Source: Ianthella basta
Taxonomy: Eukaryota > Porifera > Demospongiae > Verongiida > Ianthellidae
DNA length: 64,000 nucleotides
Assembly (NCBI GenBank): GCA_964019415.1
Contig: OZ025875.1
Location: forward strand, 7,423,306 to 7,487,305
Direction: 5' to 3'
The translations under genes and the position numbers were made by a program. This document shows, piece after piece, positions 1,724 through 62,772 of this stretch. A model generated the notes under the pieces. That model did no database searches, was not told where the DNA came from, and saw only the letters and a list, made by a program, of their open reading frames with translations. Position 1 is the first letter of the stretch, and every line of letters begins with the position of its first letter.

Positions 1724-4700
1724 TTAATTCTCTTTTTTCCTTTTCTTACTCTTGTCAACCACTGCATACACTGCATTTGGTTCACATGACTCAGACTGAA
1801 GGCCTGTTACCTTTGGATCATCAGAGAGGCTTCCCATTTCAACACCACCAGCATTTCCTTCAGTCTTCACCACAGTCCCAAGCCAATCCATCCCAATGAC
1901 AGTGCTACTTTCATAGTGCTGCTCTTCTGTGTAATGATCTTGTGTAGCGGTAGTGCTTTGATCACCTTCTGTTTTGCCCTTTTTCTTTTTCCTACTTTTG
2001 TCAACCACTGCATACACTGCATCTGGTCGTGTGTCTGTTGGCTGGTCAACATGTAGGCCCTCATCCACTGTGCCATGTCTGTCCCAATCCCTGGATAGAA
2101 TTTCAGCTGCATCAATTTCATCATAGTCTCCATTGCACCTGATTCTGTTACCTTCCACACTATCGAGACTTCTCTGTATCAGAATATTGGCACTTTCGTG
2201 ATTCAGTTCTTCCACATATTGCTCTACTCTTACATTGTCTATGCAGTGTTCACATTCGTTACCAGTTGTTGCCTCCTCAACTTTTCCTTGAGGTTCTTCC
2301 ACTTTCTCTGTACATTCCATGCTCTTGACTGAAGGCAACCGTTTCTTTGGTAATCCTTCCTTCCTCTTTGCCCTTCTCAACAGCACTAATCCACTGATCC
2401 CAGCAACCAGCAGTGCAAGGAGCAGGAAGGACACTGCTACACCAGACAGTACTGCTGTCAGGTTCAGTGCACCAACACCTGTGGGAGAACCTGTGAAGGA
2501 AAAGATTGGAGTATATAAATGATATACAGCTAGTTTTAAAAAGCATGCGAGACATTTGTACATCACTAGATATCCACAGAGTGTACTAAAAATGTACTCT
2601 ATATATTAATGCAGGTGAGTTTCATTTACCACCATCTACCTTTCTTGTCTTCTTCATTTGTACTGCTTGGTGTGGATACAACAGTGTTATTAAATGTGGC
2701 AGTGCTGTTGGATGTGGGTGTGGCAGAACTGCTGGATGTGGGTGTGGTAGTGCTGCTGGATGTGTGTGTGGCAGTGCTGCTGGATGTGGGTGTGGCAATG
2801 CTGCTGGATGTGGGTGTGGCAGTACTACTGGATGTGGGTGTGGCAGGTACCATTTCAATTGTGATAGGAGTGCTTTCATTCCTCCCAGCTGAGTTCACTG
2901 CCACCACTCTGATGGTGTAGTTGGTACCACTGTGTAGTCCTGTCACGTTGTAGTGTGTGCTATCACTTGTAGCTATAGTGCTGACTGAGGTCCAACTCCC
3001 ACTGTCCTCTGTCTTGTACTCTATGACATAGTGCACCTCTCCATTGGGTTCATTAGGAGGTAGCCAGTTCAGTTCAACACCATCTCTGAACACTCTTGTA
3101 ACGGTGCCATTTCTTGGAGAGGAGGGGTCTGCTGGGTAAGAAGGCAAACAGTGTTTTCTGGAGGTGGGGGGATTGCTCATCAGTGGATAAAGTGACCACA
3201 ATAATGCTTCACAGAACTTGTATAAGTATATCCAAGCAGCTCGTGCTTGCAGAATACTGCACTGTATCAGATCTATGTAGGAGGCACTATACATAGAACT
3301 CACTTGTTTCTTCAGTGGTAACACTCTCCATTGCTGGTGTTGCACTCCTGCTACCATTACCAAGTGCCCATGCTGTAATCCTGTACTGAGCACCTGGTAC
3401 TGCAGGGCTGATTGTAACATTCATCCCTCTACCTGTATTCACATACTCTCCTATCATTGGTACTCCAAAGCGAAACACCTCATATCCAGCAATGACTCTA
3501 TTTGCACTGCCATGTGCTGTTGTCTCATACACCACTTGTGAGCTAGTCACATCTGTGACAGTGACTCCTGGGGGAGGAACTGAGTCAATGTGTGTGGGAG
3601 GGAAATAGAAGTAATGATGTCCATGTGCAGTCACTGTACTGGGCTAGTCTCATGAGGCAGACCACTAACTTTAAGATTATGCCATTTGTCGATGATGACC
3701 TAATATGTAATATGGAGGCAGGGTAGCAGTCTGGCTCGTGCGGCTAGTATTGGGGTACTTCACACTCTGATTTGTACTTACTATAAACATGTGTACATAT
3801 GTATGCTGTGATACCAAATATGGAAGAAGGTCATGAAACAATTAAATGTTGATTCTCCATTGACTGCAGATGACAGAATGAAGAAATGCCAGCCCAATAG
3901 CATAATGAGGACATGTGTTATCGCCTCCTACAATAAGACCCATTAGCAGTTAGTAGCCACAGTCATTTTGTGATGTATCAAGTGCTATGCTGTTCATATA
4001 TGCAGCAGTGATGTTGCGTGATAGAGTATATAGATTCATTTTAGACATTGTAGCACCAGATTGGACGTGTTTATTACTCACTGTTGTTTAATGATGTGAG
4101 GTAGAGATAGAAGTAGTTAGTGTCATTTGAATTGCAGTACACATCTCTGTTCTGAAAAGTGTCAATGTTGGTGGTGTTCACATTGAGCCATGTTGTATGT
4201 GTGTATTGTGTTTGACTGGCTCCTCCAGTGTCTAGTGTTCTGTTAGGGCTGTTGAACCAAGGTTTTGGTTGTCCACTGCTGACATCACATTTAACTCTGT
4301 ATCCAGTTACTCCTGACCTTATTAAGTAATTTATCTGTTGAAGATCAGTTATTGGATACTGGTTAGGTATGAGTCTCCCTTCACTGTGGACAGCACGACC
4401 ACCTATGGAAATGTGTGCGAATGTGATAGATGGAGTTTGTAGGTAGTATTATAAGAGGGTCCATTTGTTGTAACAATGCCATGACAGTTGTATGCCACTC
4501 ATGTGTACACACTTGGTACTGCATACTGAGTGATGCTAACCAGCAATATTGAGTGTGAAACTCCCATTAGCTTTCTGTCCTCCTTTAACTGTCACCTGAC
4601 AGGTGTATGTCCCACTGTAAGTTGTGGATATTGTAGTGATGGCCAAAATGAAATTGTTCTGGTAGGAACTTCTACTTTTGAGCTGAGCTGTAAAACATAA

Positions 4701-5202
4701 TCCATCTGGACAGTTCCAGGTGAAGCTAAGTGGTGAGGTTGAAGTCTCTCCACTAGTGAAACGTAGTTTTGTTCCATAAGGTAGACCAACAACCTGACAG
4801 ACTAGGATGAGTTGAGTTCCAAAGGGAACTGAGTCCCCAGATGTAAGGGTACTGTTGTGTGTGTAGGCGTCAATCACTACAGTAACTGTTGAGGAGGCAT
4901 TTGAAGTATCACAACTAACTCTATTACGTAATACTCCTAGCATATTGCCTTTCTCTCCTATCCTTCCCTCTCACTCCAGAATATCTTACTTAACTGTCTC
5001 TTCCCCTCACCTTCCCCTGTTGTGTTTCCTCCTGTGAAAGTGAGACTAGCCCCCTCTTCCTGACTGCCACTGCCAGCTAGACCTGAAGGGAGGAGGGGAC
5101 ACACCCTCCACTCAGCAAGTGTCCCTCCCCCTCAATGTAGTGTGTGTCCTCACCTGATGTGGCTGTGAGTGCAGTTAGAAGTAGAGTGAACAGCATCTTC
5201 AT
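1724..5202 (-). CDS. G1: Ig-Ig-FN3-FN3 receptor with tail-1
   Basis: Predicted single-pass surface receptor of 772 aa. Exons, transcription order: 5202-5154, 5082-5011, 4885-4541, 4402-4082, 3579-3304, 3128-2640, 2490-1724. All junctions are phase 1 and the total is divisible by three. Signal peptide MKMLFTLLLTALTATS; Ig1 about residues 41-155 (Cys in LVCQV, Trp in FTWNC, YTCQV); Ig2 156-262; FN3-1 263-354; FN3-2 from 355 with the WLPP, YVIEYK and NYTIRVVAVNSAG landmarks; then a short stalk of about seven TATPTSSS-like repeats to 517. The last exon gives a membrane helix (VSFLLLALLVAGISGLVLL), an RRAKRK stop-transfer and a tail with YDEI, two YAVVDKS and HYESS motifs, which are possible SH2 docking sites once phosphorylated. 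The Ig1 donor reads GTTAGC where paralogues have GTAAGC. Domain calls are strong; the signalling role is inference. Confidence 0.8.
2684..2850 (-). repeat. G1 stalk minisatellite (24-bp unit)
   Basis: About seven copies of a 24-bp unit encoding the 8-aa Ser/Thr/Pro repeat TATPTSSS on the minus strand. This is the short version of the arrays that are greatly expanded in G8-G12. It would form an O-glycosylated, extended juxtamembrane stalk. Confidence 0.85.
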
Positions 5203-6083: not shown

Positions 6084-6290
<207 letters not shown>

Positions 6291-6302
6291 CTATACTAGT
6301 GA

Positions 6303-9300
6303 TCACTTCTTCCCTCCATCACCCTCCATCCCATTGTCAACCCTCTGGTAGTGGTGCTCCTCCTCCTTGCCTTGGAGATCCAGCTCCTGGTAGGTCCCCC
6401 CTCCCAGTTGAGTGTACACACTGTCACAGACCTGGCTCCCCACATCAAGTCCTTGGTACACAACCGCTCTCCCAACAATGGAACACTCCTCATCCACAAC
6501 ATCATAGGTGTGGTCTTTTGTACCCTCCTCCTCTTCTGTTGCCCCACCCACCTCAGTTGTGCTGCTCACCTCTTTGGAATCTATCTTTCTGTCTGGGGAA
6601 TTCCCTTTCTGTTCCCATGCTCTTCTCCCCAGCACCACTCCGATAGCAACCCCCACAGTGAGACTGAGTAGTGTCAGGAGAACAAAGACCACCACACCAA
6701 CTGTGACACCAGTTACGTCACCTGCACCACCTGAATAGGGTAAGCAATGAATGAAGTTTTACTGATGTACTGTAGCTGTGAACAGTGTGTTTATGTACTG
6801 CATTCTTCCTTTTGTTTTTGAGTACGTGTGTGCTGTCCTCATACACTGCTACTGACAAATGCCTCATTCATTGTGTACACTATACAGTATAATCGATGCC
6901 ATGTAGCTCAAAATTGAAGACAGATAGTCAGAAAACCAAACAAGATATCCACAGAGTGAACTAGATGTGACTAACTCAAATAATGCAAATGAGTTTCATT
7001 CGCCACCATCTACCTTTCTTGTCTTCTTCATTTGTACCGATTGGTGTGGGTACAACAGTGTTATTGGATGTGGGCGTGTCTGTGCTGCTATATGTGGGTG
7101 TGGCAGTGCTGTTGGATGTGGGTGTGGCAGATGTCATTTCAACTGTGATAGGTGTACTTTTATGCAGCCCAGCTGAGTTGACTGCCACCACTCTGATGGT
7201 GTAGTTGGTACCACTGTGTAGTCCTGTCAAGTTGTAGTGGGTGCTATCACTTGTAGTGTTGACTGAGGTCCAACTCCCACTGTCCTCTCTCTTGTACTCT
7301 ATGACATAGTGCACCTCTCCATTGGGTTCAGTAGAAGGTAGCCAATTAAGCTCAACACCCTCTCGGAACACTCTTGTGATGGTGACATTTCTTGGAGGGG
7401 AGGGGTCTGCTGGGCAAGAAGGCAAACAGTATTTTGAAGGTGGGTGATTACTCGTCGATGGATAAAGTAACCACAATATTGTTGCACAGAACTTGCATAA
7501 GTATTTCCAATCATGTGCCTGCATGCATAACTCTGTGCTGTACATATCAGATCTACATAGAACTCACATGCTTCTCCAGTGGTAACACTCTTCACTGCTG
7601 GTGTTGCACTCCTGCTACCATTACCAAGTGCCCATGCTGTAATCCTGTACTGAGCACCTGGTACTGCAGGGCTGATTGGAACTCTCCTCCCTCTACCTGT
7701 ATTCACATACTCTCCTATCATTGGTACTCCAAAGCGGAACACCTCATATCCAGCAATGACTCTATTTGCACTGCCATGTGCTGTTGTCTCATACACCACT
7801 TGTGAGCTAGTCACATCTGTGACAGTGACTCCTGGGGGAGGAACTAAGTCAATGTGTGTGGAAGGGAAATAGAGAAATGATGTACATGTACAGTATGTTC
7901 ACAGCTATCATGTAGTCCCATGAGCAGACCATGCACTAATATAACTTCAAGATTATTTGATGATGACCTAATCTGTTAATATGGAGGCAAGTTAGTGGCC
8001 TGGCTCACGAGACCAGTATTGGGCTACTTCACGCCCTGATTTGTATTCACTATATAGTACATGTGTACATATGTATGCTGTGATACCAAATAATAATATT
8101 ATGGAAGAAAGTCATAAAAATTTAATGGTGATTCTCTGTCGACTGCAAATGAAAGAATGAAGAAATGCCAGACCTCTCCTTGTGCACAGTGCATAATGAT
8201 AACGAGCAACATCGGTGTTATCACCTCCTACATTAAGACCCATTAGCAGTTAGTAGCCACAGTCATTATGTGATGTATGAAGTGCTGTACTGTACATATG
8301 CAGCAGTGATGTTGTGTGATAGAGTAGATTCATTTTGGACATTGTAGCAACAGATTGGACATGTTTATTACTCACTGTTGTTTGATGATGTGAGGTAGAG
8401 ATAGAAGTAGTTAGTGTCATTTGAATTGCAGTACACATCTCTGTTCTGGAAAGTGTCAATGTTGGTGATGTCCACATTGAGCCATGTTGTACGTGTGTAT
8501 TATGTTTGACTGACTCCTCCAGTGTCTAGTGTTCCGTTAGGGCTGTTGAACCAAGGTGATGGTGGTCCACTGCTGACATCACATTTAACTCTGTATCCAG
8601 TTACTCCTGACCTTATTAAGTAATTTATCTGTTGTAGATTAGTTATGGGGAAGTGGTGAGGTATTAGCCTTCCTTCACTGTGGACAACACGACCACCTAT
8701 GGAAATGTGTACAAATGTGATAGATGGAGTTTGTAGGTAGTAATATAAGAGGGTCCATTTGTTGTAACAATGCCATGAGAGTTGTATGCCACTCGTGTAC
8801 ACACTTGGTACTACATACTGAGTGATGCTTACCAGCAATATTGAGTGTGAAACTCCCCTTAGCTTTCTGTCCGCTTGCATCTGCCACCTGACAGGTGTAT
8901 GTCCCACTGTAAGTTGTGGATATTGTAGTGATGGCCAAAATGAAATTGTTCTGGTAGGAACTTCTACTTTTGAGCTGAGCTGTAAAACATAATCCATCCG
9001 GACACTTCCAGGTGAAGGTGAGTGGTGAGGTTAAGGTCTGTCCACTAGTGAAGCAGAGTTTTGTTCCATAAGGTAGACTAACAACCTGACAGACTAGGAT
9101 GAGTTGAGTTCCAAGGGGAACTGAGTCCCCAGATGTGATGGTACTATTGTGTGTATAGGCATCAATCACTACAGTGACTGTTGAGGAGGGAGTAGCACAA
9201 CAAACTCCATCACTTATCCTAGCATTGTGCCTTTCTCTCTCTCCCTCCCCCTCTTCCTCCCTCTCACCTTCCCCTGCTGTGTTTCCTCCTGTCAAAGTGA

Positions 9301-9459
9301 GACTAGCTCCCTCTTCCTGACTGCCACTGCCAGCTAGATCTGAAGGGAGGAGGGGACACACCCTCCCCTCAGCAAGTGCCCCTCCCCCTCACCGTAGTGT
9401 GTGTCCTCACCTAATGTGGCAGTGAGTGCTGTGAGAAGTAGAGTGAACAGCATCCTCAT
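6303..9459 (-). CDS. G2: Ig-Ig-FN3-FN3 receptor with tail-2
   Basis: Predicted 627-aa surface receptor. Exons: 9459-9411, 9339-9268, 9177-8833, 8696-8376, 7843-7568, 7406-7014, 6730-6303; all phase 1, total divisible by three. The signal peptide starts MRMLFTLLLTALTAT. Ig1 about 41-155, Ig2 156-262, FN3-1 263-354, FN3-2 plus a very short stalk (about four repeats) 355-485. The tail exon is of the second class: helix FVLLTLLSLTVGVAIGVVLG, then an acidic tail with YDVV, VVYQGL, SVYTQL, TYQEL and HYQRV. VVYQGL and SVYTQL fit the ITIM consensus (S/I/V/L)xYxx(I/V/L), so a phosphatase-recruiting inhibitory role is possible (inference). It is the partner of G1 in a two-gene module, and its Ig1 resembles G1 rather than the other tail-2 genes. 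Confidence 0.8.
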
Positions 9460-11856: not shown

Positions 11857-14800
11857 TTACTTTGTTTCAATTCTCTTTTTTGTTTTCTTGCTCTTGTCAA
11901 CCACTGCATACACAGCATTTGGGTCACATGGCTCAGACTGAGGGCCTGTTGCCTTCGGATCACCAGAAGGGCTTCCTTTGTTAGTCTCACTAGCAGCTTC
12001 ATTGGGATTTACCTCGTTCCCCATCCAATCCATCCCAATGACAGTGCTACTTTCATAGTGCTGCTCTTCTGTGTAAGGATCATGTGCAGTGGTAGTGTTT
12101 TGATCACCTTCTGTTTTGCGCTTCTTCTTCTTCATACTTTTGTCAACCACTGCATACACTGCATTTGGGTCACATGGCTCAGACTGAAGGCCTGTTACCT
12201 TCGGATCATCAGAGGGGCTTCCTGTTTCAACACCACTAGCATCTCCTTCAGGCTTCACCTCTTTCCCCGGCCGATCTATCCCAATGAGAGTGCTACTTTC
12301 ATAGTGCTGTTCTTCTGTGTAAGGATCTTGTGTAGCAGAAGTGCTTCGATCACCTTCTGTTTTGCCCTTCTTCTTTTTCTTACTTTTGTCAACCACTGCA
12401 TACACTGCATCGAGTGTACTTGATGGCTTTTCATTCTGTTGGTCATTTTCGACTGTGCTATGTCTGTCCCAATAGTTATCCTTGGGAAGAATTTCAGCTG
12501 CATCAATTTCATCATAGTCTCCATTGTACCTGATTCTGTTACCTTCCACTCTATTGAGACTTCTCGTTCTCAGAACATTGGCACTTTCAGGATTCAGTTC
12601 TTCCACATCTTGCTCTACTCTTACATCATCTACACAAGGTTCACATTGAATTTCATCATCAGCTGTTGATTTCTTCACTTTTCCTAGAGGTTCTTCCATT
12701 TTCTCTATACATTCCATGCTCTTGACTGAAGGTGACTGTTTCTTTAGTGATCCTTCCTTCCTCTTTGCCCTTCTCAACAGCACCACTCCAGCAATGAATA
12801 CAGCAATCAGCAATGCAAGGAGCAGGAAGGACACTGCTACACCAGACAGTACTGCTGTCAGGTCCAGTGCACCAGCTGTGGGTGAATCTGTGAGGGAGGA
12901 AGTGGTAGTGGAAGTAAATAATGCACAGATTCTGAAGACTTTACACCAGCATGAGAGATACTTGTATGTTGACTGGATATCCAGATAGTATGGTAGGTGT
13001 GGCTACTCTATAATGCAAGTGAGATTCATTCCCAACTGTTTCTTCCTTGTCTTCTTCACCTGTGCTGCTAGGTGTGGGAGTGTCAGTGTTATTGGATGTG
13101 GGTGTAGCAGTGCTGCTGGATGTGGGTGTGGCAGTGCTGCTGGATGTGGGTGCCATAGGTGCCCTCCCAGCTGAGTTCACTGCCACCACTCTGATGGTGT
13201 AGTTGGTACCATTGTGTAGTCCTGTCAAGTTGTAGTGGGTGCTATCACTTGTAGTGTTGACTGAGGTCCAACTCCCACTGTCCTCTCTCTTGTACTCTAT
13301 GACATAGTGCACCTCTCCATTGGGTTCAGTAGGAGGTAGCCAGTTCAGTTCAACACCATCTTGGAGCACTCTTGGGATGGTGACATTTCTTGGAGGGGAG
13401 GGATCTGTCAGAATAAGAAGACAAACAAGCATTATGGGTGTAAGGGGGAATGGAGTTGGATGAATTAGCCACAAAGACGCTTCACAGAGCTTGCCTACTT
13501 ATGTCCGGCATGCAATTGTGCTTGCATGCATGATACTATGCTGTATCAGATCTAGAAGGCACTATGCGTAGAACTCACTTGCTTCTCCTGTGGAAACACT
13601 CTTCACTGCTGGTGTTGCACTCCTGCTACCGTTACCAAGTGCCCATGCTGTAATCCTGTACTGAGCACCTGGTACTGCAGGGCTGATTGTAACTCTCCTT
13701 CCTCCACCTGTATTTGCATACTCTCCTATCATTGGCACTCCAAAGCGAAACACCTCATATCTAACAATGACTCTAGTTGCATTACCATGTGCTGTTGTCT
13801 CATACACCACTTGTGAGCTAGTCACATCTGTGACAGTGACTCCTGGGGGAGGAACTGAGTCAATGTGTGTGGGAGGGAGAAAGAGGGTATGATTTACTTC
13901 TACAATCACTGCTACTGTACACATGACATTGTGTAAAAAATGTACATATGCTGTAATACCGAATGTATCGAAGAAAGTCATGAAACAAATGTTAATTCTC
14001 CATCTACTGCCAATGTCAGAAATGACGAAATGCCAGTCCTCTCTTTGTGCACAGAACATACTGTAATGATGACAAGTGTTATCAGTGTTATCACCTGCTA
14101 CAGCACATTACGTTAAGACCCATTAGCAGTTAGTAGCCACAGTCATTTTGTATGTATCAAGTGCTGTACTGTACATATGCAGTAGTGATGTTGTGTGATA
14201 GAGTAGATTCATTTTGGACATTGTAGCACCAGACTGGATGTGTTTATTACTCACTGTTGTTTGATGATGTGAGGTAGAGATAGAAGTAGTTTGTTCTCAT
14301 GTCATCACAGTACACATCTCTGTTCTGGAAAGTGGCAATGTTGGTGATGTCCACATTGAGCCATGTTGTACGTGTGTATTGTCTCTGACTGACTCCTCCA
14401 CTGTCTAGTGTTCCGTTAGGGCTGTTGAACCAAGGTGATGGTGGTCCACTGCTGACGTCACATTTAACTCTGTATCCAGTTACTCCTGACCTTATTAAGT
14501 GATTTATCTGTTGTAGATCAGTTATGGGGAAGTGGTGAGGTATGAGTCTCCCTTCACTGTGGACAACACGACCACCTATGGAAATGTGTACAAATGTGAT
14601 AGATATTGTGTGTAGGTAGTAATATAAGAGGGTCCATTTGTTGTAACAATGCCATGACAGTTGTATGCCACTCATGTGTACACACTTGGTACTGCATACT
14701 GAATGATGCTTACCAGCAATATTGAGTGTGAAACTTCCATTAGCTTCCTGTCCACCTGCATCTGTCACCTGACAGGTGTATGTACCACTGTAAGTTGTGG

Positions 14801-15329
14801 ATATTGTAGTGATGGCCAAAATGAAATTCTTCTTGTAGAACTTTCTACTTTTAAACTGAGGTATAGTGCATACTCCGGTTGGACAGTTCCAGGTGAAGGT
14901 GAGTGGTGAGGTTAAGGTTTGCGCAGTTGAGTAACGTAGTTTCGTCTCATGAGGTAGACCAACAACCTGACAGACTAGAATGAGTTGAGTTCCAAGGGGA
15001 ACTGAGTCCCCAGATGTGAGGGTACTGTTGTGTGTGTAGGCATCAATCACTACAGTGACTGTTGAAGGAGGAAGTACCACAACAAACTCCATGAATCATC
15101 CTAGCATTGTGCCTCACTCTCTCTCCTTCCCCCTCACCATTCCCTGTTGTGTTTCCTCCTGTGAAAGTGAGACTAGCCCCCTCTTCCTGACTGCCACTGA
15201 CAGCTAGACCTGAATGGAGGAGGGGACACACCCTCCCCTCAACAAGTGTCCCTCCCCCTCACTGTATTGTGTGTCCTCACCTGCTGTGGCAGTGAGTGCA
15301 GTGAGAAGTAGAGTGAACAGCATCCTCAT
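11857..15329 (-). CDS. G3: Ig-Ig-FN3-FN3 receptor with long tail-1
   Basis: Predicted 812-aa receptor. Exons: 15329-15281, 15209-15138, 15058-14714, 14575-14255, 13854-13579, 13404-13060, 12887-11857; all phase 1. Ig1 41-155 has the variable segment of the STAQ/TIPQF type shared with G4 and G7. Ig2 156-262; FN3-1 263-354; FN3-2 and a minimal three-repeat stalk 355-469. The stalk donor lies inside GCACAG|GTGAAG, upstream of the site used by G1, because this is the only phase-1 choice. The tail (470-812) holds a helix, YDEI and three YAVVDKS copies in an internal 82-aa duplication (YAVVDKS to the next YAVVDKS) that also repeats HYESS. The stop overlaps AAAGTAAGC, which resembles a splice donor, so a further 3' exon cannot be excluded. 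Confidence 0.8.
13075..13155 (-). repeat. G3 stalk minisatellite, minimal
   Basis: About three 24-bp units encoding TATPTSSS-type repeats, near the shortest stalk in the array. Confidence 0.75.
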
Positions 15330-19035: not shown

Positions 19036-19044
19036 TAGGTAAGG

Positions 19045-19403
19045 TAAGCTTACAGCAACCTGGCTCTAGATTCATCATCATTGCACAGTGTGAGGATGGT
19101 GTCAAACAGAGCATCAATCCTTGGCCTATCTCAGACTTTCTGCCTACTCGATGTAGTGGGTGCAGGCATCTCGGGTGGTAGGTCTTGCTTCCACACCCTC
19201 AAAGAAAGATCTCTTTCCTCATACTGAGTTGTTGAGAGGTGAGCTGGTAACAGGTCTGGCATAAGTGACTGGGCTCCATCAGCTGAAGCCAAAAAGGCAG
19301 TAGGTGCAAGATAAGAGGCCCTTCGTATGCCAAGACCACCACACCAGACAAGAGTGGCCTGAAGCCAGCAGGGATCATCAGGACGGACCTTATGTAATAC
19401 CAT
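19045..19403 (-). mobile_element. Retroelement reverse-transcriptase C-terminal fragment
   Basis: Minus-strand reading frame carrying RPDDPCWLQATL, CGGLGIRRASYLAPTAFLAS and, after one in-frame TGA at about 19131, DRPRIDALFDTILTLC to a TAA at 19052-19050. The GGLGIR..LAP.AFLAS pattern is typical of the C-terminal region of reverse-transcriptase polyproteins of invertebrate retroelements. No catalytic YXDD region is present. It sits at the breakpoint that removed the 5' end of G4; co-duplicated spacer resumes at about 19390. Confidence 0.6.
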
Positions 19404-28600: not shown

Positions 28601-28710
28601 AAGGGGACACACCCTCCCCTCAGCAAGTGCCCCTCCCTCTCACTGTAGTGTGTGTCCTCACCTGATGTGGCAGTGAGTACAGTGAGAAGTAGAGTGAACA
28701 GCATCCTCAT
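25665..28710 (-). CDS. G6: Ig-Ig-FN3-FN3 receptor with tail-2, possibly impaired
   Basis: Exons: 28710-28662, 28590-28519, Ig1 28442-28096 (conventional) or 28442-28116, Ig2 27958-27638, FN3-1 27352-27077, FN3-2/stalk 26913-26419 or -26423, tail-2 26095-25665. Two problems. Ig1 is 347 nt at the usual donor instead of 345, because two bases are inserted near 28112-28125, shifting the frame before Ig2. A cryptic donor GGCAG|GTTCAC at 28116 would restore phase 1 but remove the last Ig strand. The stalk exon at AG|GTAAGT (26423) is in phase 0; the overlapping GTAA|GTATAT (26419) would give phase 1. With both alternatives the frame is open for 656 aa. The tail resembles G2 (YDVV, VVYQGL, SVYTQL, TYQEL, HYQRV). 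Either a gene using shifted splice sites or an early pseudogene. Confidence 0.6.
26466..26640 (-). repeat. G6 stalk minisatellite
   Basis: About seven 24-bp units encoding TATPTSSS/TDTHTSSS repeats. Confidence 0.8.
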
Positions 28711-30310: not shown

Positions 30311-30764
30311 AATGTACTACTGGACTGTGTTCCATGTACTTGCTGCATACTTAGATTATTCTATTATATACAGTACCCATTAATTATCAGGCGAGATATA
30401 TGTTTCATGCTCTATGTATTTTATACTATAAGTACATATGTGGCAATGATTGTACTCATTTCCCATGCATACAATATCATGAGAATTCACATAATAGAGA
30501 CTAATCAAATGAAGGGTCCAAAAGACTTACGGAATACGAAAACATATGTAAATTGTGAGGTTATATAATTTTATACTGAATTACATAGTTAGAGGATCAT
30601 TATATAGTAAACAAATTTAGTAATGAAGGATCCAAAAGACTTACAGAATTTGAAAACATATGTAAATTGTGATGTAACATAATTTTTACTGAATTACGTA
30701 GTTATATAGTAAGCAAATTTAGTTAATACAGGTAATGCTGTGTTGATGAGAGTGAAAGGGAATT

Positions 30765-48276: not shown

Positions 48277-51200
48277 TCATGGACCTGCACCTCGGTATCC
48301 TATTGCACTCAAGTTGGCACCTTTAGGGACCGACCCATTGCCATCGCGCTCACTGTCTTTCTGCAGTGCATTGGCCTCACTTGCGTCTCCTCCGCTGCTG
48401 TTCTTCTGTGCCTTCTTCATCTTCCTTTCATTCGTCTTCTTGCTCTTGTCAACCACTGCATACATTGCACTTGGATCACTGGGCTCAGACTGTAGGACAT
48501 TCTCCTTAGCATCATTGAGAGAGCTTTCCTTCATGGCCTCATTGCGGCTTCCACCAGACAGCACTTCCACTTCATTCCCAAACCAGTCTTGTCCAAATAC
48601 ATCACTGCATTCATAGTGCTGCTCCTGCTCCTGTACAGCAGTAGCTCCACCTCCTTTATTCTTCTTCTTGCTTTTGTCGACCACTGCGTATACTACATTT
48701 GGGTTGCCTGTTGACTGGTCACTCTGCTGGGCCTTTTCCTTCTGGTCATTGCAGAGGCTACTATCCTCTGCCTTTGGTAGTGCATCAACATTGTCATTGT
48801 CAATATCACAATAGTCTCCCGCAAACCTGACCATTTTCACCTTGCCAACAGAACCCTGTCTCGGAACATCTACACTGTCATACTGATTGTCTCCTGCTCT
48901 TTCATCTGCAGGGTACGGTTCAAGTCTAAAACTCTCCTGCTGTTCATTGGCCTGAGTAGTGGAGAAGTTGGCCATTCTTTCACTCTCTTCTTCCCTCTCC
49001 GCTGGGGAATATGTCTTCCTATGCCGAGCCCTTCTACACACCACCCCAACAACAACCACAATAGAGATGACCAGTATCAGGAGAATGAAGGCTGCTACTG
49101 GACCAGCCATCACTGGTATTAGGCCATCTGTTCCTAGTGTATAAGAGAAGTAAAATTGCATATAAACTATCCAGGGTGATGGAAAGTATTGTAAATATAC
49201 TAAAATTAGTCACACAATAAAATCGTGTTTCTGTAGTAGTAGTAAAATTGCATGTTATTTCCATATGCCATCCACCCCAACTCAACTTAAGAGTATCATA
49301 AACCGGCTGGCCCACCTGTTATATCAGTTCCTTTTGTGTTATTCAGTGGTGGTGTGCTCTTGGGTGTGGCTGTGGCAGTGTCATAGGATGTAAGAGCGGC
49401 AGTCCAGATAGATGTGGGAGTGAGTTCAATAGTGTTGCTGGAAATGGGTGTGACAGTGTTACTGGATGTGGCAGAACTTGTACTGTCGCGTGCAGAGGTG
49501 GCAATACTGTTGGATATGAGTATGGCAGTGCTACTTGATGCGGGTGTGGCAGTGATGCTGGATGTGGGTGTGGCAGTGCTACTGGATGTGGGTGTGGCAG
49601 TGCTGCTGGATGTGGGTGTGGCAGTACTGCGGGATGTGGGTGTGGCAGTGCTACTGGATGCGGGTGTGGCAGTGATGCTGGATGTGGGTGTGGCAGTGCT
49701 GCTGGATGTGGGTGTGGCAGTGCTGCTGGATGTGGGTGTGGCAGTACTGCGGGATGTGGGTGTGGCAGTGCTACTGGATGTGGGTGTGGCAGTGCTGCTG
49801 GATGTGGGTGTGGCAGTGATGCTGGATGTGGGTGTGGCAATGATGTTGGATGTGGGTGTGGCAGTGCTGCTGGATATGAGTATGGCAGTGCTGTTGGATG
49901 TGGGTGTGGCAGTGATGCTGGATGTGGGTGTGGCAGTGATGCTGGATGTGGGTGTGGCAGTGCTGCTAGATGTGGGTGTGACAGTGCTGCTGGATGTGGG
50001 TGTGGCAGTGATGTTGGATGTGGGTGTTGCAGTGCTGCTGGATGTGTGTGTGTTAGTGCTACTGGATGTGGGTGTGTCAGTGCTGCTGGATGTGGGTGTG
50101 GTCTTGGTGTTGGATGTGGGTGTGGCAGTGCTGCTGGATGTGGGTGTGACAGTGCTGCTGGATGTGGGTGTGGCAGTGATGTTGGATGTGGGTGTTGCAG
50201 TGCTGCTGGATGTGTGTGTGTCAGTGCTACTGGATGTGATTATGTTATTGCTGTTGGATGTGGGTGCGACAGTGCTGCCGGACGTGGGTGTGGCATTGCT
50301 GACATTGATAGGTGACCTCCCAGCTGAGTTCACTGCCACCACTCTGATGGTGTAGTTGGTACCACTGTGTAGTCCTGTCAAGTTGTAGTGGGTGCTATCA
50401 CTTGTAGTGTTGACTGAGGTCCAATTCCCACTGTCCTCTCTCTTGTACTCTATGACATAGTGCACCTCTCCATTGGGTTCAGTAGGAGGTAGCCAGTTCA
50501 GTTCAACTGTGAAATTGAATGTTCTGGTGATAATGATATTCCTTGGGGTAGAAGGAGCTGTTGGAGATATGATATAGCTTTAGCATATTATAAAATTTCT
50601 ATAGTATAGTATAGTATAGTATAGTATAGTATAGTATAGTATAGTATAGTATAGTATAGTATAGTATAGTATAGTATAGTATAGTAATTCTATAGTATTA
50701 CATACGTAGTAGCAGTGAGATGTACGTCACAAGCACAATAATGACCATTATTATAATGATCATTACATTTGACTACACAATGAGATATACTTAAGAGATG
50801 CACTGTTAACTTTGCCATTCTTAATACATTGTATTGGCAAACACGTACAACTCACTTTCTTCTCCAGTAGTGACACTCTCCACTGCTGGTGTTGCACTCC
50901 TGCTACCATTACCAAGTGCCCATGCTGTAATCCTGTACTGAGCACCTGGTACTGCAGGGCTGATTGGAACATTCATCCCTCCACTTGTATTCACATACTC
51001 TCCTATCATTGGTACTCCAAAGCGGAACACCTCATATCCAGAAATCAATGAAGTTGTTACATTATCTGTTCTCTCCACCCCATACCACAATGACATATTT
51101 GTAGCTCTGTTCAAAGTGAGATTTGGTTGACTGATGGGATCTGAATAATGTGAGGTAGGCATGGAGAAGTCTGCTAAGAGTCTGAACTCAACAATTATGG

Positions 51201-53101
51201 TATGAAACGTTATGCCTCAAAGCAACAACTACAGTAAATTTGCTTCTTAAAAGCATACAGCCACTATATACACATACCTGGCTAATTGTGGGAACTGTAG
51301 GTGAGTGGCATAAAATTTGTGTTGACACTTCCACCATTAACTACACATGTTATGTACATTTTTACTTTGCCCAACATAACACTGACACAATGGCAAACTA
51401 CGTATATAAGGAAACATGACAACCTGCGATCAATGCGGAATCTGAGCATACAATGACAGCCTGTACTGCCCTTGCTATATCACTGTAAACGTTTCAGCTA
51501 TTAATTTGCGATAATTTAGGCAAGAAAATGATTTAGCACATTTTTCATTATCATTCTACATTGTATCTTCTGTATAATTAGTACTCTCCAAATCCTGGAC
51601 TTTCAGAATGCTAAATTTAGTTGCTGCTAAAACTGTAGCCTTAAAGCATAATATATGTACACAAATAAGGCTGTGAAATGGACTGGCATGCCTCCAGACA
51701 CACTGTTATAGTGAACAGATATTGTAAATTATTACTCTCACTTTCCAAACAAAACTTGCATTGGATGCTTCTTTGTGTGGACCTGCTATCAGTAAATATG
51801 TCTTTAGCATGCCCAAAGTAACACTATAGCCTTTTTTGAATCATTCAATGAATGTTTTATTAGGAAGACTTCGAAGGATTAGACTTAATTGCCATGTGAT
51901 GGGAATTATGATGTATGTAATTACTTTTGGCGCGCTTCTAGCTCAACTTACGTTTATAAGTTATTTTCAAATGAAGTAAAATAATGGTAAAAATAATGCT
52001 AATTTGTCTTTTTAATGTCACACCTCTTTTAATGGAAGTCTGAGATGAAGTAATTGGTGTTATATACATTCTGTTATCAAATCAAGACAATATCCACATA
52101 TTACATGATTACATTTCATAAGAACAGTAGGGTCGATACAATCAACTCACTGGTGTCCGAGATGAAGAGATAGAAGTAATTAGTAGTTGGGTTGCTGCAG
52201 TACAATTGTCTATTGTGGAAGTTGTCTGTTGAATTCAATAACAGCATCAGTAGTGCTGTCATTGTGTTATTGGTCTGAATCACTCCATCAGTTTCTGGCA
52301 CTCCACTTCGTCTCATGAACTTAGCAGTTCCACTACTGACAGTGCAGTTGATCCTCCCAATCCCATCTGAACCAGATATCTGTTGTAGATCAGTTATGGG
52401 GAACTCATGAGGTATGAGTCTTCCATAGCTGTGGACAACACTGCCACCTGAATGTTGAGAAAGCAGTAGGATTTCACTCCAGTACACTGCTCTATGTTAC
52501 ATCACTCTACTGTAGTGTAGTGAAGGGCATACCTGTGACATTGAGTGTGAAGTTCCCATTAGCTTCCTGTTCTCCTGTAGCTGTCACCTGACAGGAGTAT
52601 GTCCCTCCATCACTTGCGGAAGTTGTGTTGACAGCCAGGATGTGTTGATTGTAGACCTTTCTACCATAATACCCTTCTACTTCACATGTTCCATTTGGAC
52701 AGGTCCAGGTGTGACTGAGTGGTGTTCCATAAGGTAGACCAACAACCTGACAGACTAGGAGGAGCTGAGTTCCAAGGGGAACTGAGTCCCCAGACGTGAG
52801 GGTACCACTGTGTGTGTAGGCATCAATTACTACAGTGACTGTTGAGGGAGAAGAAGAGGTAGCAGAGGGTCTTAGTCTACTACAACCCTGCAAAATGCCT
52901 CCCTCTCACCATTCCCTGTTGTGCTTCCTCTTGTTAAAGTGAGACTAGCCCCCTCTTCCTGACTACCACTGCCAGCTAGACCTGAAGGGAGGAAGGGACA
53001 CACTCTCCCCTCAACAAGTGCCCCTCCTCTTCACTGTAGTGTGTATCCTCACCTGATGTGGCAGTGAGTGTAGTGAGAAGTAGAATGGACAGCATCTTCA
53101 T
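48277..53101 (-). CDS. G10: Ig-Ig-FN3-FN3 receptor, longest stalk, tail-1
   Basis: Predicted 1035-aa receptor. Exons: 53101-53053, 52981-52910, 52838-52533, 52447-52151, 51140-50856, 50557-49316, 49133-48277; all phase 1. The signal peptide starts MKMLSILLLTTLTATS. Ig1 41-142, Ig2 143-241, FN3-1 242-336, FN3-2 and a stalk of about 38 repeats to 750. The tail is almost the same as G9 (YPADE, YDSV, YCDI, YAVVDKSKK, HYECS..GQDWFG, MYAVVDKSKK). Its signal, linker, Ig1 and Ig2 exons are nearly identical to those of G11, which has tail-2, so G10 and G11 are two ends of a recent recombinant. The intron between FN3-1 and FN3-2 carries a pentanucleotide array. Confidence 0.82.
49375..50302 (-). repeat. 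G10 coding minisatellite (about 38 units)
   Basis: 24-bp units inside exon 6. A multi-unit block recurs (about 49535-49655 against 49655-49775, and 49980-50060 against 50140-50220), so growth was by block duplication as well as single units. The frame is kept throughout. Confidence 0.93.
50601..50685. repeat. (ATAGT)17 pentanucleotide array
   Basis: Seventeen tandem ATAGT units in the FN3-1/FN3-2 intron of G10. The same place in G11 (near 56885) has only about two units, and G9 has one. Confidence 0.97.
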
Positions 53102-54742: not shown

Positions 54743-54743
54743 C

Positions 54744-55406: not shown

Positions 55407-58400
55407 TCAGTGTCCCTCCTTCCTCACATCCATTGCCTGGTAGTGATGCTCTTCCTCCTTACCCTGTGTATCCAGCTCTTGGTAGGTCCCTCCTCCCAGT
55501 TGAGTGTACACACCGTCACAATCCTGCGTACTCACATCCAGACCCTGGTACGCTGCCTCTCTCCCAACAGTGGTGCTCCCCTCATCCACAACATCATAGG
55601 TGTGGTCTTTTGTACCCTCCTCCTCTTCAAGGTGGTGTTGAGGTTGTGACAATTGAGGTGTTGTCATACTCACCTCAATTACATTACTCATCTCTTGTGA
55701 TTCTGTTATATTCTCTGCCAGCTTTCTCTTTCTCCCCTGTCCCCTTCTCCTTCGCACCACTCCAACAGCAACCCCGGCAGTGAGACTGAGTAGTGTCAGG
55801 AGAATGATGACCACTAACATGCCAACTGTAATACCAGCTATGTTCACTGCTCCACCTGTGTGGGGTGACAAGAAAGAGGAATGTACTGTATAATTATGCT
55901 GTATAGTGAAAGAAGACATATACAAGATACGTATCACTCTGACTATCCATTAGTGTACTCAAGTATATATTCTGTATCTGTCATAATGTTTGATATTGTC
56001 ATGATCAACCCTCTTCTCACTCACTGCTTACCTACTGTGCTTATATTTTCTTTTCCTGTATTGTTGGAGTTTGGTAGAGACATGCTACTGGGTGTGGGTG
56101 TGATACTTCTGCTAGATGTGGGTGTGGCAGTACTGCTGGATATGAGTTTGGTAGTGCTGCTGGATGTGTGTGTGACAATGCTGCTGGATGTGGGTGTGGC
56201 AGTGCTGCTGGATGTGGGTGTGGCAGTGCTGCTGGATGTGGGTGTGGCAGTGCTGCTAGATGTGGGTGTGGCAGTGATGCTGGATGTGGGTGTGGCAGTG
56301 ATGTTGGATGTGGGTGTGGCAGTGATGTTGGATGTGGGTGTGACAGTGCTGCTGGACATGTGTGTGTCAGTACTGGTGGATATGAGTATGGCAGTGCTGC
56401 TGAATGTGTGTGCAGCATTGCTGCTGGATGCGGGTGTGGCAGTGCTGCTGGATGTGGGTGTGGCAGTGCTGCTAGATGTGGGTGTGGCAGTGTTGCTGGA
56501 GGTGGGTGTGGCAGTGCTGCTGGATGTGGGTGTTGCAGTGATGTTGGATGTGTGTGTGTCAGTGCTGCCGGACGTGGGTGTGGCATTGCTGACATTGATA
56601 GGTGACCTTCCAGCTGAGTTCACTGCCACCACTCTGATGGTGTACTTGGTACCACTGTGTAGTCCTGTCAAGTTGTAGTGGCTGCTATCACTTGTAGTGT
56701 TGACTGAGGTCCAATTCCCACTGTCCTCTCTCTTGTACTCTATGACATAGTGCACCTCTCCATTTGGTTCAGTAGGAGGTAGCCAGTTCAGTTCAACTGT
56801 GTAATTGAGTGTTCTTGTGATAATGACATTCCTTGGGGTAGAGGGAGCTGTTAGAGAGAAGATATAGCTTAAGTTTAAACTTTCTATAGTATAGTATTGT
56901 AATTCTATAGTATTATATATGTATTAGCAGTGAGATGTCACAGGTACAGTAATGACCATTATTATAGTGATCATTACATTTGACTACACAATGAGATATG
57001 CTTAAGAGATGCACTGTTAACTTTGCCATTCTTAATGCATTGTATTGGCAAGCACAACTCACGTGCTTCTCCAGTAGTGACACTCTCCACTGCTGGTGAT
57101 GCACTCCTGCTACCATTACCAAGTGCCCATGCTGTAATCCTGTACTGAGCACCTGGTACTGCAGGGCTGATTGGAACATTCATTCCTCCACTTGTAGTCA
57201 CATACTCTCCTATCATTGGTACTCCAAAGCGGAACACCTCATATCCAGAAATCAATGAAGTTGTTACATTATCTGTTCTCTCCACCCAATACCACAATGA
57301 CATATTTGTAGCTCTGTTCAAAGTGAGATTTGGTTGACTGATGGGATCTGAATAATGTGAGGTAGGCATGGAGAAGTCTGCTATGAGCCTGAACTCTACA
57401 ATTATGGTATGAAACATACATGCCTCAAAGCAGCAACTACAGAAAATGTGCTTCTTATAGCATACAGCCACTATATGCCCCTACCTGGCTAATTGTGGGA
57501 ACTGTAGGTGAGTGGCATAAAATATGTCGATACTTCCACCATTAACTACACACGTTATGTACATCTTTACTTTGCCCAACATAACACTGACACAATGGCA
57601 AACTACGTATATAAGGAAACATGACAACCTGCAATCAATGCAGAATTTGAGCATACAAGACAGCCTGTACTGCCCTTGCTATGTCACTGTAAAAGTTCCA
57701 ATTATTGATTTGCGTTAATTTAGGCAAGGAAAGCTCACTCACATATACTGCAAGATGTAGTGTACAACTACAACATTCTGAATTATATAATAAAATGAGG
57801 AAGGAAAGGAAATGAAGCATGAAAGAAAACGAGACAAGGAAATAATTTAGCACATTTTTCACTATCATTCTACATTGTATCTTCTGTATAATTAGTACTT
57901 TCCAAATTCTGGACTTTCTGAATGCTAAATTGTAGTTGCTGCTGAAATTGTAGCCTTAAAGCATATACACAAATAAGGCTGTGAAATGGACTGGCATGCC
58001 TCCAGGCACACTGTTATAGTAAACAGGTATGTAAATTATTGCTCTGAGACTCACTTTCCAAACAAAACTTGCATGGGATGCTTCTTTGTATGGACCTGCT
58101 ATCAGTAAACGTGCCTTTAGCATGCCCAAAGTAACACTACAGCCTTTCTTGAATCATTCAATGAATGTTTTATTAGGAAGACTTCGAAGGATTGGACTTA
58201 ATTGCCATGTGACGGGAATTATGTATGTAATTACTTTTGGTGCACTTCTAGCTCAACTTATGTTTATAAGTTATTTTCAAATGAAGTCAAATAACGGTAA
58301 AAATAATTCTAATTTGTCTTTTTAATGTCACTCTTCATGCATGATAGGTGCAATCTCATGGAAGTCTGAGAAGAAGTAAATGGTGTTATATACATTCTGT

Positions 58401-59445
58401 TATCAAATCAAGACAATATCCACATATCACATAACATCCACATATTACATGATTACATTTCATAAGAACAGTAGGGTCGATACAATCAACTCACTGGTGT
58501 CCGAGATGAAGAGATAGAAGTAATTAGTAGTTGGGTTGCTGCAGTACAATTGTCTATTGTGGAAGTTGTCTGTTGAATTCAATAACAGCATCAGTAGTGC
58601 TGTCATTGTGTTATTGGTCTGAATCACTCCATCAGTTTCTGGCACTCCACTTCGTCTCATGAACTTAGCAGTTCCACTACTGACAGTGCAGTTGATCCTC
58701 CCAATCCCATCTGAACCAGACATCTGTTGTAGATCAGTTATGGGGAACTCATGAGGTATGAGTCTTCCATAGCTGTGGACAACACTGCCACCTGAATGTT
58801 GAGAAAGCAGTAGGATTTCACTCCAGTACACTGCTCTATGTTACATCACTCTACTGTAGTGTAGTGAAGGGCATACCTGTGACATTGAGTGTGAAGTTCC
58901 CATTAGCTTCCTGTTCTCCTGTAGCTGTCACCTGACAGGAGTATGTCCCTCCATCACTTGCGGAAGTTGTGTTGACAGCCAGGATGTGTTGATTGTAGAC
59001 CTTTCTACCATAATACCCTTCTACTTCACATGTTCCATTTGGACAGGTCCAGGTGTGACTGAGTGGTGTTCCATAAGGTAGACCAACAACCTGACAGACT
59101 AGGAGGAGCTGAGTTCCAAAGTGAACTGAGTCCCCAGATGTGAGGGTACCACTGTGTGTGTAGGCATCAATTACTACAGTGACTGTTGAGGGAGAAGAAG
59201 AGGTAGCAGAGGGTCTTAGTCTACTACAACCCTGCAAAATGCCTCCCTCTCACCATTCCCTGTTGTGCTTCCTCTTGTCAAAGTGAGACTAGCCCCCTCT
59301 TCCTGACTACCACTGCCAGCTAGACCTGAAGGGAGGAAGGGACACACTCTCCCCTCAACAAGTGCCCCTCCTCCTCACTGTAGTGTGTATCCTCACCTGA
59401 TGTGGCAGTGAGTGTAGTGAGAAGTAGAATGGACAGCATCTTCAT
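55407..59445 (-). CDS. G11: Ig-Ig-FN3-FN3 receptor, long stalk, tail-2
   Basis: Predicted 757-aa receptor. Exons: 59445-59397, 59325-59254, 59182-58877, 58791-58495, 57347-57063, 56847-56032, 55855-55407; all phase 1. Signal, linker, Ig1 and Ig2 are nearly identical to G10 (one residue differs in the Ig2 reading frame, two in Ig1: SVHFG for SVPLG). FN3-1 242-336; FN3-2 and about 21 stalk repeats to 608. The tail is tail-2: helix LVVIILLTLLSLTAGVAVGVV, basic RRRRGQGRKRK, then YDVV, AAYQGL, GVYTQL, TYQEL, HYQAM. The -2 residues before YQGL and YTQL differ from G2, so these are Yxx(L/M) motifs rather than strict ITIMs. A G10-like ectodomain joined to a tail-2 cytoplasmic part. Confidence 0.82.
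56083..56602 (-). repeat. G11 coding minisatellite (about 21 units)
   Basis: 24-bp units coding TATPTSSS-like repeats inside exon 6; frame kept. Confidence 0.92.
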
Positions 59446-60904: not shown

Positions 60905-62772
60905 TCAGTATCCCTCCTTCCCCACATCCATTGCCTGGTAGTGATGCTCCTCCTCCTTACCCTGTGTATCCAGCTCTTGGTAGGTCCCTCCTCCCAGTTG
61001 AGTGTACACACCGTCACAATCCTGCGTACTCACATCCAGACCCTGGTACACTGCCTCTCTCCCAACAGTGGTGCTCCCCTCATCCACAACATCATAGGTG
61101 TGGTCTTTTGTACCCTCCTCCTCTTCAAGTTGGTGTTGAGGTTGTGACAGTTGAGGTGCTATCTCACTCACCTCAATTACATTACTCATTTCTTGTGATT
61201 CTGTTTTATTCTCTGGTAGGTTTCTCTTTCTCCCCTGTGCTCTTCTCTTCAGCACCACTCCAACAGCAACCCCGGCAGTGAGACTGAGTAGTGTCAGGAG
61301 AATGATGACCACCAGCGTGCCAACTGAAATAGCAGCAGCTATGTTTATTGCTCCACCTGTATAATGTGACAAGAAAGAGGAACAGTTGTATACAGTGAAA
61401 GATAACATACCACTCTGACTATCCATTAGTGAACTGAAGTATATTCTGTATCTGTCATATGACATGCATTGTCATGATCATCCCTCTTCTCACTCACTGC
61501 TTACCTACTGTGCCTATATTATTTTCTCCTGTGTTGTTGGAGTTTGGTATGGCAGTGCTGCTGGATATGGGTGTGGCAGTGCTGCTGGATGTGTATGTGG
61601 CAGTGCTGCTGGATGTGGGTGTGGCAGTGCTGCTGGATGTGGGTGTGGCAGTGCTGTTGGATGTGGGTGTGGCAGTGCTGCTGGATGTGGGTGTGTCAGT
61701 GCTGCTGGATGTTGGTGTGGCAGTGCTGCTGGATGTGGGTGTGGCAGTGCTGCTGGATGTGGGTGTGTCAGTGCTGCTGGATGTTGGTGTGGCAGTGCTG
61801 CTGGATGTGGGTGTGGCAGTGCTGCTGGATGTGGGTGTGGCAGTGCTGTTGGATGTGGGTGTGTCAGTGCTGCTGGATGTGGGTGTGGCAGTGCTGCTGA
61901 ATGTGGGTGTGGCAGTGCTGCTGGATGTTGGTGTGGCAGTGCTGCTGGATGTGGGTGTGTCAGTGCTGCTGGATGTGGGTGTGGCAACACCATTGGATGT
62001 GGGTGTGGTAGTGCTGCTGGATGTGGGTGTGGTAGTGCTGCTGGATGTGGGTGTGTCAGTGCTGCTGGATGTGGGTGTGGTAGTCCTGTTGGATGAGGGA
62101 ATGGCAGTGCTGCTGGATCTGTGAGTGTCAGTGCTGCTGGATGTGGGTGTGTCAGTGCTGCTGGATGTGGGTGTGGCAGTGCTGCTGGATGTGGGTGTGG
62201 CAGTGCTGCTGGATGTGGGTGTGTCAGTGCTGCTGGATGTGGGTGTGTCAGTGCTGCTGGATGTGGGTGTGGCAGTGCTGCTGGATGTGGGTGTGGCAGT
62301 GATGTTGGATGAGGGAATGGCAGTGCTGCTGGATCTGTGAGTGTCAGTGCTGCTGGATGTGGTTGTGGCAGTGCTGCTGGATGTGGGTGTGGTAGTCCTG
62401 TTGGGTGAGGGAATGGCAGCGCTGCTGGATGTGGGTGTGTCAGTGCTGCTGGATGTGGGCGTGGCAGTGCTGTAGGGAGTAGGTGTGATGGATGCTATTT
62501 CAATTCTGATAGGAGTGCTTTCATGACGCCCAGCTGAGTTCACTGTCACCACTCTGATGGTGTAGTTGGTACCAATGTATAGTCCTGTCAAGATGAAGTG
62601 GATCTAGATAATGGCATCTAGTGGACCTAGACCATGGCTATATTACACAGTACTAGCAGGGAAGCATAAGCAGTTTACTCTCTCTCAGTGTGTGTATGTA
62701 CAAGTGTGGTATGGTGGGCGTGTCCTCACCTGATGTGACAGTAAGTGTAGTGAAAAACAACATGAACAGCAT
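60905..62772 (-). CDS. G12: Ig-less mucin-stalk receptor with tail-2
   Basis: Predicted 524-aa protein. Exons: 62772-62730, 62584-61505, 61356-60905; phase 1 at both junctions and open throughout. Signal peptide MLFMLFFTTLTVTS. Linker, Ig1, Ig2, FN3-1 and the first half of FN3-2 are absent. The second exon begins at a CTTGACAG|GA site that is internal FN3-2 coding sequence in all paralogues, continues with GLYIGTNYTIRVVTVNSAGR, then about 39 Ser/Thr/Pro repeats. The tail is tail-2 close to G11: VVIILLTLLSLTAGVAVGVV, YDVV, AVYQGL, GVYTQL, TYQEL, HYQAM. It may be a functional mucin-like molecule with the same signalling tail but no Ig binding head, or a deletion product whose cryptic splice happens to keep the frame. 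The intron is 145 nt. Confidence 0.6.
61542..62482 (-). repeat. G12 coding minisatellite (about 39 units)
   Basis: The most regular and among the longest arrays. 24-bp units alternate TATPTSSS and TDTPTSSS, with multi-unit block duplications (for example the TDTHRSSSTAIPSS block twice, near 62090-62130 and 62300-62345). Frame kept. Confidence 0.93.

Follow-up and report, generated by a model that had tools for sequence, protein, structure and literature searches.

Introduction

LILR and KIR are paired receptors of mammals. In such systems, exemplified by CEACAM1 and CEACAM3, very similar heads are borne on differing tyrosine-motif tails, and the heads are homogenized by gene conversion (PMC2832619). 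CD300A and CD300C likewise carry similar heads on different tails (PMC12447643). In Hydractinia, the Alr genes (at least 41 loci) form clusters of single-pass receptors of the immunoglobulin superfamily (IgSF), pseudogenes included (PMC11067881). The Hydractinia candidates carry immunoreceptor tyrosine-based inhibition motifs (ITIM) and hemITAM motifs, and the Botryllus candidates carry motifs of the ITIM or activation (ITAM) type; for the fuhc receptors of Botryllus an activating/inhibitory logic has been proposed (PMC12065747). In this study, we analyzed 64,000 nucleotides from the sponge Ianthella basta (assembly GCA_964019415.1, contig OZ025875.1, here C8; C8:7423306-7487305), referred to below as the window. 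The window is a slice of a 1.39-Mb array of genes (C8 6.264-7.654 Mb) for predicted single-pass receptors, in part of which two types of tyrosine-motif tail alternate on shared heads. The genomic data come from this single assembly (209 Mb, 96 contigs). A COX1 gene on contig C96, read with TGA as Trp, has its top match in a cluster of Demospongiae (90% identity), which marks the genome as that of a demosponge.

With mammalian paired receptors the array shares very similar heads on different tails in linked genes. However, it has at least four tail types and alternates gene by gene, and it is presumably larger than the mammalian arrays; no sequence relation to the mammalian receptors was seen in protein searches of the sponge heads. 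With Hydractinia Alr it shares tandem IgSF single-pass receptors, pseudogenes and tyrosine motifs, but it differs in its fibronectin type III (FN3) domains and mucin stalk. No protein named Alr was among the 27 or 113 matches listed in two protein searches, which find only sequences with exact words in common and included no direct comparison with Alr sequences. The fuhc genes are of the Ig/Sushi type (PMC12065747), and no relation to them was found here.

Other sponge proteins were also considered. The Ig-bearing proteins of Geodia contain a Pro/Ser/Thr-rich region, and the sponge aggregation factors have a Calx-beta/Wreath architecture that differs from that of the array receptors. The Geodia cydonium receptor tyrosine kinase and adhesion molecule resemble the array receptors as sponge proteins with Ig domains (PMC11999971). 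No match named Geodia appeared among the same 27 and 113 matches, the reference sequences not being compared directly, and no kinase was found in the four tails scanned. The aggregation factors are described as candidate recognition molecules of sponges (PMC5450542). No published report of this receptor family was found in the literature searched, whose coverage leaves out most subscription papers. The preliminary description of the window had recognized no described system, and no named family was matched in the literature and protein searches made here. Clustered IgSF receptors with tyrosine tails are a known kind; as far as tested, the family, its size, its multiple tail blocks and its alternating array in a sponge are new.

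Results

Two tail types, a short type A and a long type B, alternate along part of C8. Between 7.281 and 7.455 Mb, 31 tails (15 A and 16 B) alternate at 28 of the 30 junctions, and none of 200,000 shuffles did as well. A tail was counted if it matched over at least 60 residues the tail of G2 (A, at least 60% identity) or G6 (B, at least 70%), the second and sixth units of the window, with adjacent fragments joined; diverged tails at 7.263 and 7.276 Mb were left out, as were about ten extra B-like tail exons that have diverged (39-53%), open ones included. The next two tails below 7.281 Mb, an A at 7.2705 Mb and a B at 7.268 Mb, are both damaged and keep the alternation, bringing it to 30 of 32. 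The 18 genes with heads in the sequenced stretch (L030-L035 and the window; 7.364-7.455 Mb) alternate without exception, a headless T1-like tail at ~7.407 Mb being excluded. Alternating tail types on exchanged heads are an addition to the preliminary description.

The heads do not follow the tails. Among the 18 sequenced genes, mean identities within A, within B and between A and B were.85,.88 and.87 for the first Ig domain (IgA),.95,.92 and.94 for the second, Ig-like domain (IgB),.94,.94 and.93 for FN3-1, and.93 in all three comparisons for FN3-2, whereas they were.94,.89 and.48 for the tails. An approximately unbiased (AU) test on 16 of the 18 genes rejected heads grouped by tail (p=0.0003, log-likelihood difference 142). 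In the head tree, the neighbors 12B and 13A pair (100/99), as do, less firmly, 16B and 17A (90/97) and 07A and 08B (85/81). The 300-nt 5' flanks showed identities of.81 (A-A),.68 (B-B) and.52 (A-B). The number of tail-label changes on the tree was three at 600-300 nt upstream, two in the 5' flank of 300 nt (5.9 on average in shuffles), five to eight in each of eight segments from the signal to FN3-2, and one each in the stalk plus intron, the segment before the transmembrane part, and the tail. These identity, AU and flank analyses used exons of sufficient length only (7 to 9 of the 9 genes per type). The tails thus sort completely by type and the 5' flanks for the most part, but the heads do not. 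Exchange of heads between two gene lineages, by gene conversion or by double exchange of a head cassette, would leave such a pattern.

Within the window, three collinear blocks (95%, 93% and 88% identity) link G2 to G3; they begin upstream of the signal, take in the introns and reach into the stalk, and the two tails do not match; G3 and G4 share the tail and 3' part at 92.6%. Tail swapping was considered as the main process. The G2/G3 pair alone fits either process, and head conversion is preferred because the 5' flanks also largely sort by type. Exon shuffling between blocks was not supported: trees of IgA, IgB, FN3-1 and FN3-2 for window genes and genes of C8 6.25-6.45 Mb (W1, W9, C09 and C12 left out) differ in branch lengths, with no significant discordance in topology. 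The chimeras proposed in the preliminary description stand for head against tail; among the four head domains they are not supported.

At least four tail types (A/A2, B/T1, C and D) are borne on one type of head. Genome-wide matches, several of which may be fragments of one tail, numbered 56 for A/A2 (C8 7.20-7.55 Mb, C16 and one on C11), 66 for B/T1 (C8 7.18-7.52 Mb and C16), 39 for C (C8 6.27-6.49 Mb, one at 6.68 Mb, and C4 2.90-2.92 Mb) and 87 for D (C8 6.51-7.02 Mb, one short match at 6.27 Mb, and C3). As the preliminary description had proposed, the tails are tyrosine-rich. YxxL-x10-YxxL occurs in all 11 A/A2 tails, and a YQEL-x9-YESL-type pair in 16 of 21 C tails, two of those 21 stopping early. 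The paired-YxxL spacing motif is found in none of 12 B/T1 tails, all of which carry one to three YAVVDK-like repeats. The D tail, first found in stretch L036, is a further long tyrosine-rich type. A/A2 tails hold four to five YxxPhi motifs each, against about one in shuffled tails, with at most 1 of 300 shuffles reaching the observed number. One tail each of A2, B, C and D was scanned, and no Pfam domain, kinase included, was found at E <= 0.01.

The array is far larger than the window showed. With the IgA of G4 as query, at least 151 first-Ig matches, a few of them partial, were found on C8 (6.264-7.654 Mb), C16, C3, C4 and C20; this is a lower bound, with 150 of 422 candidates scored. The IgA of G10 gave, by our count, 27 further matches in C8 7.28-7.46 Mb. 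In the 200 kb of C8 6.25-6.45 Mb, there are 17 more units and one at the end of the stretch, with the same head plan and some incomplete; mean IgA amino-acid identity within this block is 85%. A collagen-like Gly-Pro-Pro open frame lies among the receptor genes at C8 ~6.300 Mb. The FN3-1 match at C8:7299365-7299634 sits in an open frame of 1810 aa, far longer than the other copies listed.

A heads are often broken. In the sequenced genes, a stop, a net frameshift or the loss of an exon or donor was found in eight of nine A heads and none of nine B heads (Fisher 0.0004); four B genes served as references in these calls, the lesions themselves being absolute. The remaining A gene, 11A, has an intact head with an in-frame ATG. 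In 13 further array genes, judged on search rows for IgA, IgB and FN3-1 only, heads were broken in three of six A and one of seven B. Over all 31 array genes this makes 11 of 15 A against 1 of 16 B (p 0.00017), and broken tails number 2 of 15 A and 1 of 16 B. The ratio of nonsynonymous to synonymous substitution (dN/dS) was 0.44 (0.30-0.64) for A tails and 0.68 for B tails; of all parts measured, only the FN3-2 of A genes (0.42) had a lower ratio than the A tails.

In the window, tblastn with exon-type queries drawn from the window itself (non-self matches down to ~1e-96) and spliced models recovered 12 paralogous units, all on the minus strand, with the G1 ATG at 62772 and the G12 stop at 1724. 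The one-strand array of twelve genes in the preliminary description was thus recovered, as was its shared exon plan: signal, linker (~24 aa), IgA, IgB, FN3-1, FN3-2 with a Ser/Thr/Pro stalk, and a single exon for the transmembrane segment and tail. Signal peptides and transmembrane segments were assigned by eye. The same description had put every junction in phase 1. Nearly every head exon is flanked by GT-AG phase-1 sites at corresponding positions, which supports this, but the uniformity arises by construction, because the modeling script sought only such sites. Donors at the stalk end are weaker and less sure, and six models (G6, G7 and G9-G12) may misplace the FN3-1 acceptor by 12 nt.

Eight of the 12 models are intact, each open to a single terminal stop. 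These are G2 (55407..59445; tail A2, short, with YQGL-x10-YTQL); G3 (48277..53101), G4 (42032..46458) and G5 (36376..40204), all with the B-like tail T1; and G6 (array gene 18B, 30878..34618; three YAVVDK repeats), G8 (16B, 21011..24712), G10 (14B, 11857..15329) and G12 (12B, 1724..5202), all with tail B. The other four, all with short tails of type A or A2, are broken, in agreement with the pseudogenes noted earlier. G1 (60905..62772) is a remnant in which the signal exon is followed by a partial FN3-2/stalk and tail A2; everything from the linker through the two Ig domains to FN3-1 is lost, and FN3-2 in part. G7 (17A, 25665..28710; tail A) has a frameshifted IgA exon (net +2), G9 (15A, 16122..19048; tail A) is 5'-truncated and lacks the signal, the linker and half of IgA, and G11 (13A, 6303..9459; tail A) has an in-frame stop in IgB. 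The stalk is a 24-nt tandem repeat, with arrays above the chosen score in eight of the 12 genes (6 to 39 copies). For example, the FN3-2 exon of G3 (49498..50301, minus strand) holds 33.5 copies, and the head homology of G2 and G3 stops within this exon.

Some further elements lie between the genes. A degenerate extra B-like membrane/tail exon is found 3' of G6 (29965..30330, minus strand), and others lie downstream of B genes at 20041-20585 and 10634-11428 (minus strand). Relics of first-Ig exons at 60350-60472 and 54260-54361 are inverted, lying on the plus strand against the array. Long CA/GT runs occur at 6085-6291, 25537-25653, 30768-30852, 47225-47405 and elsewhere, often shortly past tail stop codons, and are possible recombination spots.

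The head consists of an Ig domain, a probable second Ig domain and two FN3 domains. IgA matches Pfam Ig_2 (E 9.3e-8), and FN3-2 matches Pfam fn3 (E 1.6e-15). For FN3-1, two copies were scanned, and fn3 was matched in one (E 0.063) and not in the other; FN3 structures were at the top of a Foldseek search with its AlphaFold2 model (predicted local distance difference test, pLDDT, 91). The Ig-like call for IgB is based on two invariant cysteines. Profile searches against PDB gave one chance-level match for IgB and weak fibronectin matches for FN3-1.

Among the 27 matches of a protein search, only Halisarca dujardinii A0AA96MNW2 (P0001) covers most of the head, with 39% identity over 95% of the head query. 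Like the array genes, it has Ig, Ig-like, FN3 and FN3 domains, an S/T stalk, a transmembrane segment and a tail with LYAEVDK/LYAVVDK repeats; this comparison is with one sequence. The YA(V/E)VDK feature is shared by B/T1 tails and not by A or C tails. The protein is named "insulin-like protein receptor", a label left unsupported because a Pfam scan found no kinase at E <= 0.01, and the name is probably a misannotation. A wider search (113 matches) returned many proteins that, in rows with a coverage of at least 20%, share 36-72% identity with the first query, and P0148 (83%), which is the window's own G8 stretch. Several relatives occur per contig: nine on one of 906,029 nt, eight on one of 669,887 nt and five, including P0148, on one of 572,303 nt, if equal size is taken as the same contig. 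The relatives fetched include heads and B-type tails, and the remaining matches are generic FN3 proteins. These relatives are probably from other sponges or other individuals.

Possible signaling partners were sought in the genome, where 70 SH2 matches were found. On the minus strand of C16, SH2 matches at 701203 and 697956 are followed by protein tyrosine phosphatase (PTP) matches at 694657 and 693793, and a second set lies at 713-707 kb; because of this SH2-SH2-PTP order, the sets suggest SHP-like phosphatases. On C4, a group of SH2-kinase open frames (2.94-2.95 Mb) is ~20-30 kb away from tail-C receptor copies (region C4:2.900-2.954 Mb). SH2 proteins may serve as effectors of the receptors. 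Tyrosine-phosphatase domains are also clustered on C6 (~5.95-7.1 Mb) and C12 (~4.4-6.1 Mb), with at least 175 matches (150 of 689 candidates scored), a second giant expansion of signaling genes in the same genome.

Discussion

The best-supported account is a paired-receptor system under concerted evolution, in which one ligand range would be coupled to two or more phosphotyrosine outputs. We regard it as an evenly balanced proposition that this giant tandem array of sponge single-pass receptors works as a set of phosphotyrosine-coupled paired, or multi-output, recognition receptors. The shared head (Ig, Ig-like, FN3 and FN3 on a mucin stalk) would bind cell-surface or microbial ligands, and the tail would set the output: short A tails, and the C tails of the 6.25-6.49 Mb block, through two close YxxL motifs, long B/T1 tails through repeated YAVVDK, and D through a long tyrosine-rich sequence. 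A and B would be separate lineages in an alternating array, with 5' flanks largely and tails fully their own. Gene conversion or unequal exchange, with its end point within or close to the repeat-rich stalk, would copy the head cassette between the lineages, and both outputs would thereby keep seeing the same ligand range. In mammals, the same pattern of head conversion and tail divergence marks ITIM/ITAM pairs such as CEACAM (PMC2832619).

Several results weigh against this proposal. Many A/B pairs may no longer be pairs, because A heads are mostly broken (11 of 15). The 5' flanks sort imperfectly, with 08B and 18B on the A side and 05A on a long branch. B tails have a weak excess of YxxPhi, the observed number being attained in 14-41 of 300 shuffles, and the single D tail that was examined has none (129 of 300). 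The A-tail YxxL spacing is 10, against 6-8 in the canonical ITAM (PMC2832619), and motif matches are loose. All nine A tails have the strict ITIM pattern, each of them twice; it is also present in three of nine B tails and all three T1 tails, and in neither of the two A2 tails. Since A tails match ITAM-like and ITIM patterns alike, the motifs do not fix which tail would activate. A Syk-type gene was not made out among the 70 SH2 matches. No Pfam Ig match was found for IgB in any of 30 members, leaving its Ig fold unconfirmed; its AlphaFold2 model (pLDDT 62.9; best Foldseek matches Ig domains at E >= 0.14) was dropped as proof of the fold because its confidence is too low. Positive selection was also sought, and no clear sign of it was found, pooled pairwise dN/dS being mostly below 1: values for head domains were 0.42-0.89 in the A/B array; in the 6.25-6.45 Mb set, three domains gave 0.53-0.83 and only FN3-1 exceeded 1 (1.26, bootstrap 0.92-1.74).

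The locus may instead be an allorecognition complex, a possible but less probable reading. The heads would then be self/non-self determinants, acting homophilically or against a second polymorphic partner, and the balance of A and B signaling would decide fusion or rejection. A tandem IgSF cluster with pseudogenes and tyrosine tails resembles Hydractinia Alr (PMC11067881), convergence on ITIM/ITAM-type signaling from cnidarians to mammals has been proposed in a review on Botryllus (PMC12065747), and the specificity of sponge grafts has been taken to imply an underlying polymorphic system (PMC5450542). However, IgA is well conserved in the 6.25-6.45 Mb block rather than hypervariable, the words "immunoglobulin" and "fibronectin" are absent from the main text of that Amphimedon grafting study, and aggregation factors are the standing sponge candidate.

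Recognition of microbes or symbionts, for phagocytosis or tolerance, fits as well as allorecognition and is held equally tentatively. By analogy with CEACAM1 and CEACAM3, A and B would be decoy receptors or activating and inhibitory forms. In paired receptors driven by pathogens, heads likewise undergo conversion while tails diverge (PMC2832619), and a large block-wise expansion suits many ligands.

The A genes may also simply be dying. The B lineage would then be the functional one, and the alternation would remain from a two-gene unit that was duplicated in tandem. The excess of broken A heads (8 of 9 against 0 of 9 in the sequenced genes, 11 of 15 against 1 of 16 overall) and the two broken A tails agree with this, and its probability is comparable to that of the two readings just discussed. 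On the other hand, 13 of 15 A tails look intact, with a dN/dS of 0.44 and their tyrosine motifs kept, most A 5' flanks are alike (mean 81%), and 11A is intact, as is G2, an A2 gene. Loss of the A genes is thus one option; the other is that their tails continue to be used, possibly by the B heads upstream.

Such use by B heads would amount to a splice switch: a gene with a broken head would lend its intact A tail, as an alternative last exon, to the intact B head immediately upstream, and that head would be expressed with either tail. With all junctions in phase 1, B FN3-2/stalk exons could be spliced to A tails without loss of frame, transcription runs through B and then A, and in the sequenced stretch all nine A tails are intact though eight of nine heads are broken. 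However, A genes mostly retain their own 5' flank, and poly(A)-like signals show no pattern separating A from B genes. Two of 15 A tails are broken in the wider array, so the density of tail lesions is not clearly below that of heads given their length. We consider the switch improbable. Least probable is a role in cell adhesion or development with no immune function: Ig/FN3 architecture is common in adhesion molecules, and sponge IgSF proteins are tied to adhesion in a review (PMC11999971), but guidance and adhesion genes rarely form such high-copy arrays with pseudogenes, head exchange and several tails.

The paired-receptor account has a bolder form, rather unlikely though less so than the splice switch taken by itself. 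A sponge recognition complex would already be built on paired ITAM-like and ITIM-like tyrosine receptors with heads held in common by gene conversion, and some units may splice B heads to the A tails of head-broken neighbors. If this is true, the activating/inhibitory logic of natural killer-type and allorecognition systems would reach back to sponges. According to a 2025 review, the mechanisms by which invertebrates achieve allorecognition are "a complete mystery" (PMC12065747). Sponges reject grafts, and the receptors involved are not settled; the 1.39-Mb paired-tail array is a concrete, mappable candidate locus. The alternating array, with type-specific flanks and tails around shared heads, is a clean natural experiment in gene conversion, and the locus would make it testable whether signaling by a balance of tyrosine motifs predates cnidarians and bilaterians.

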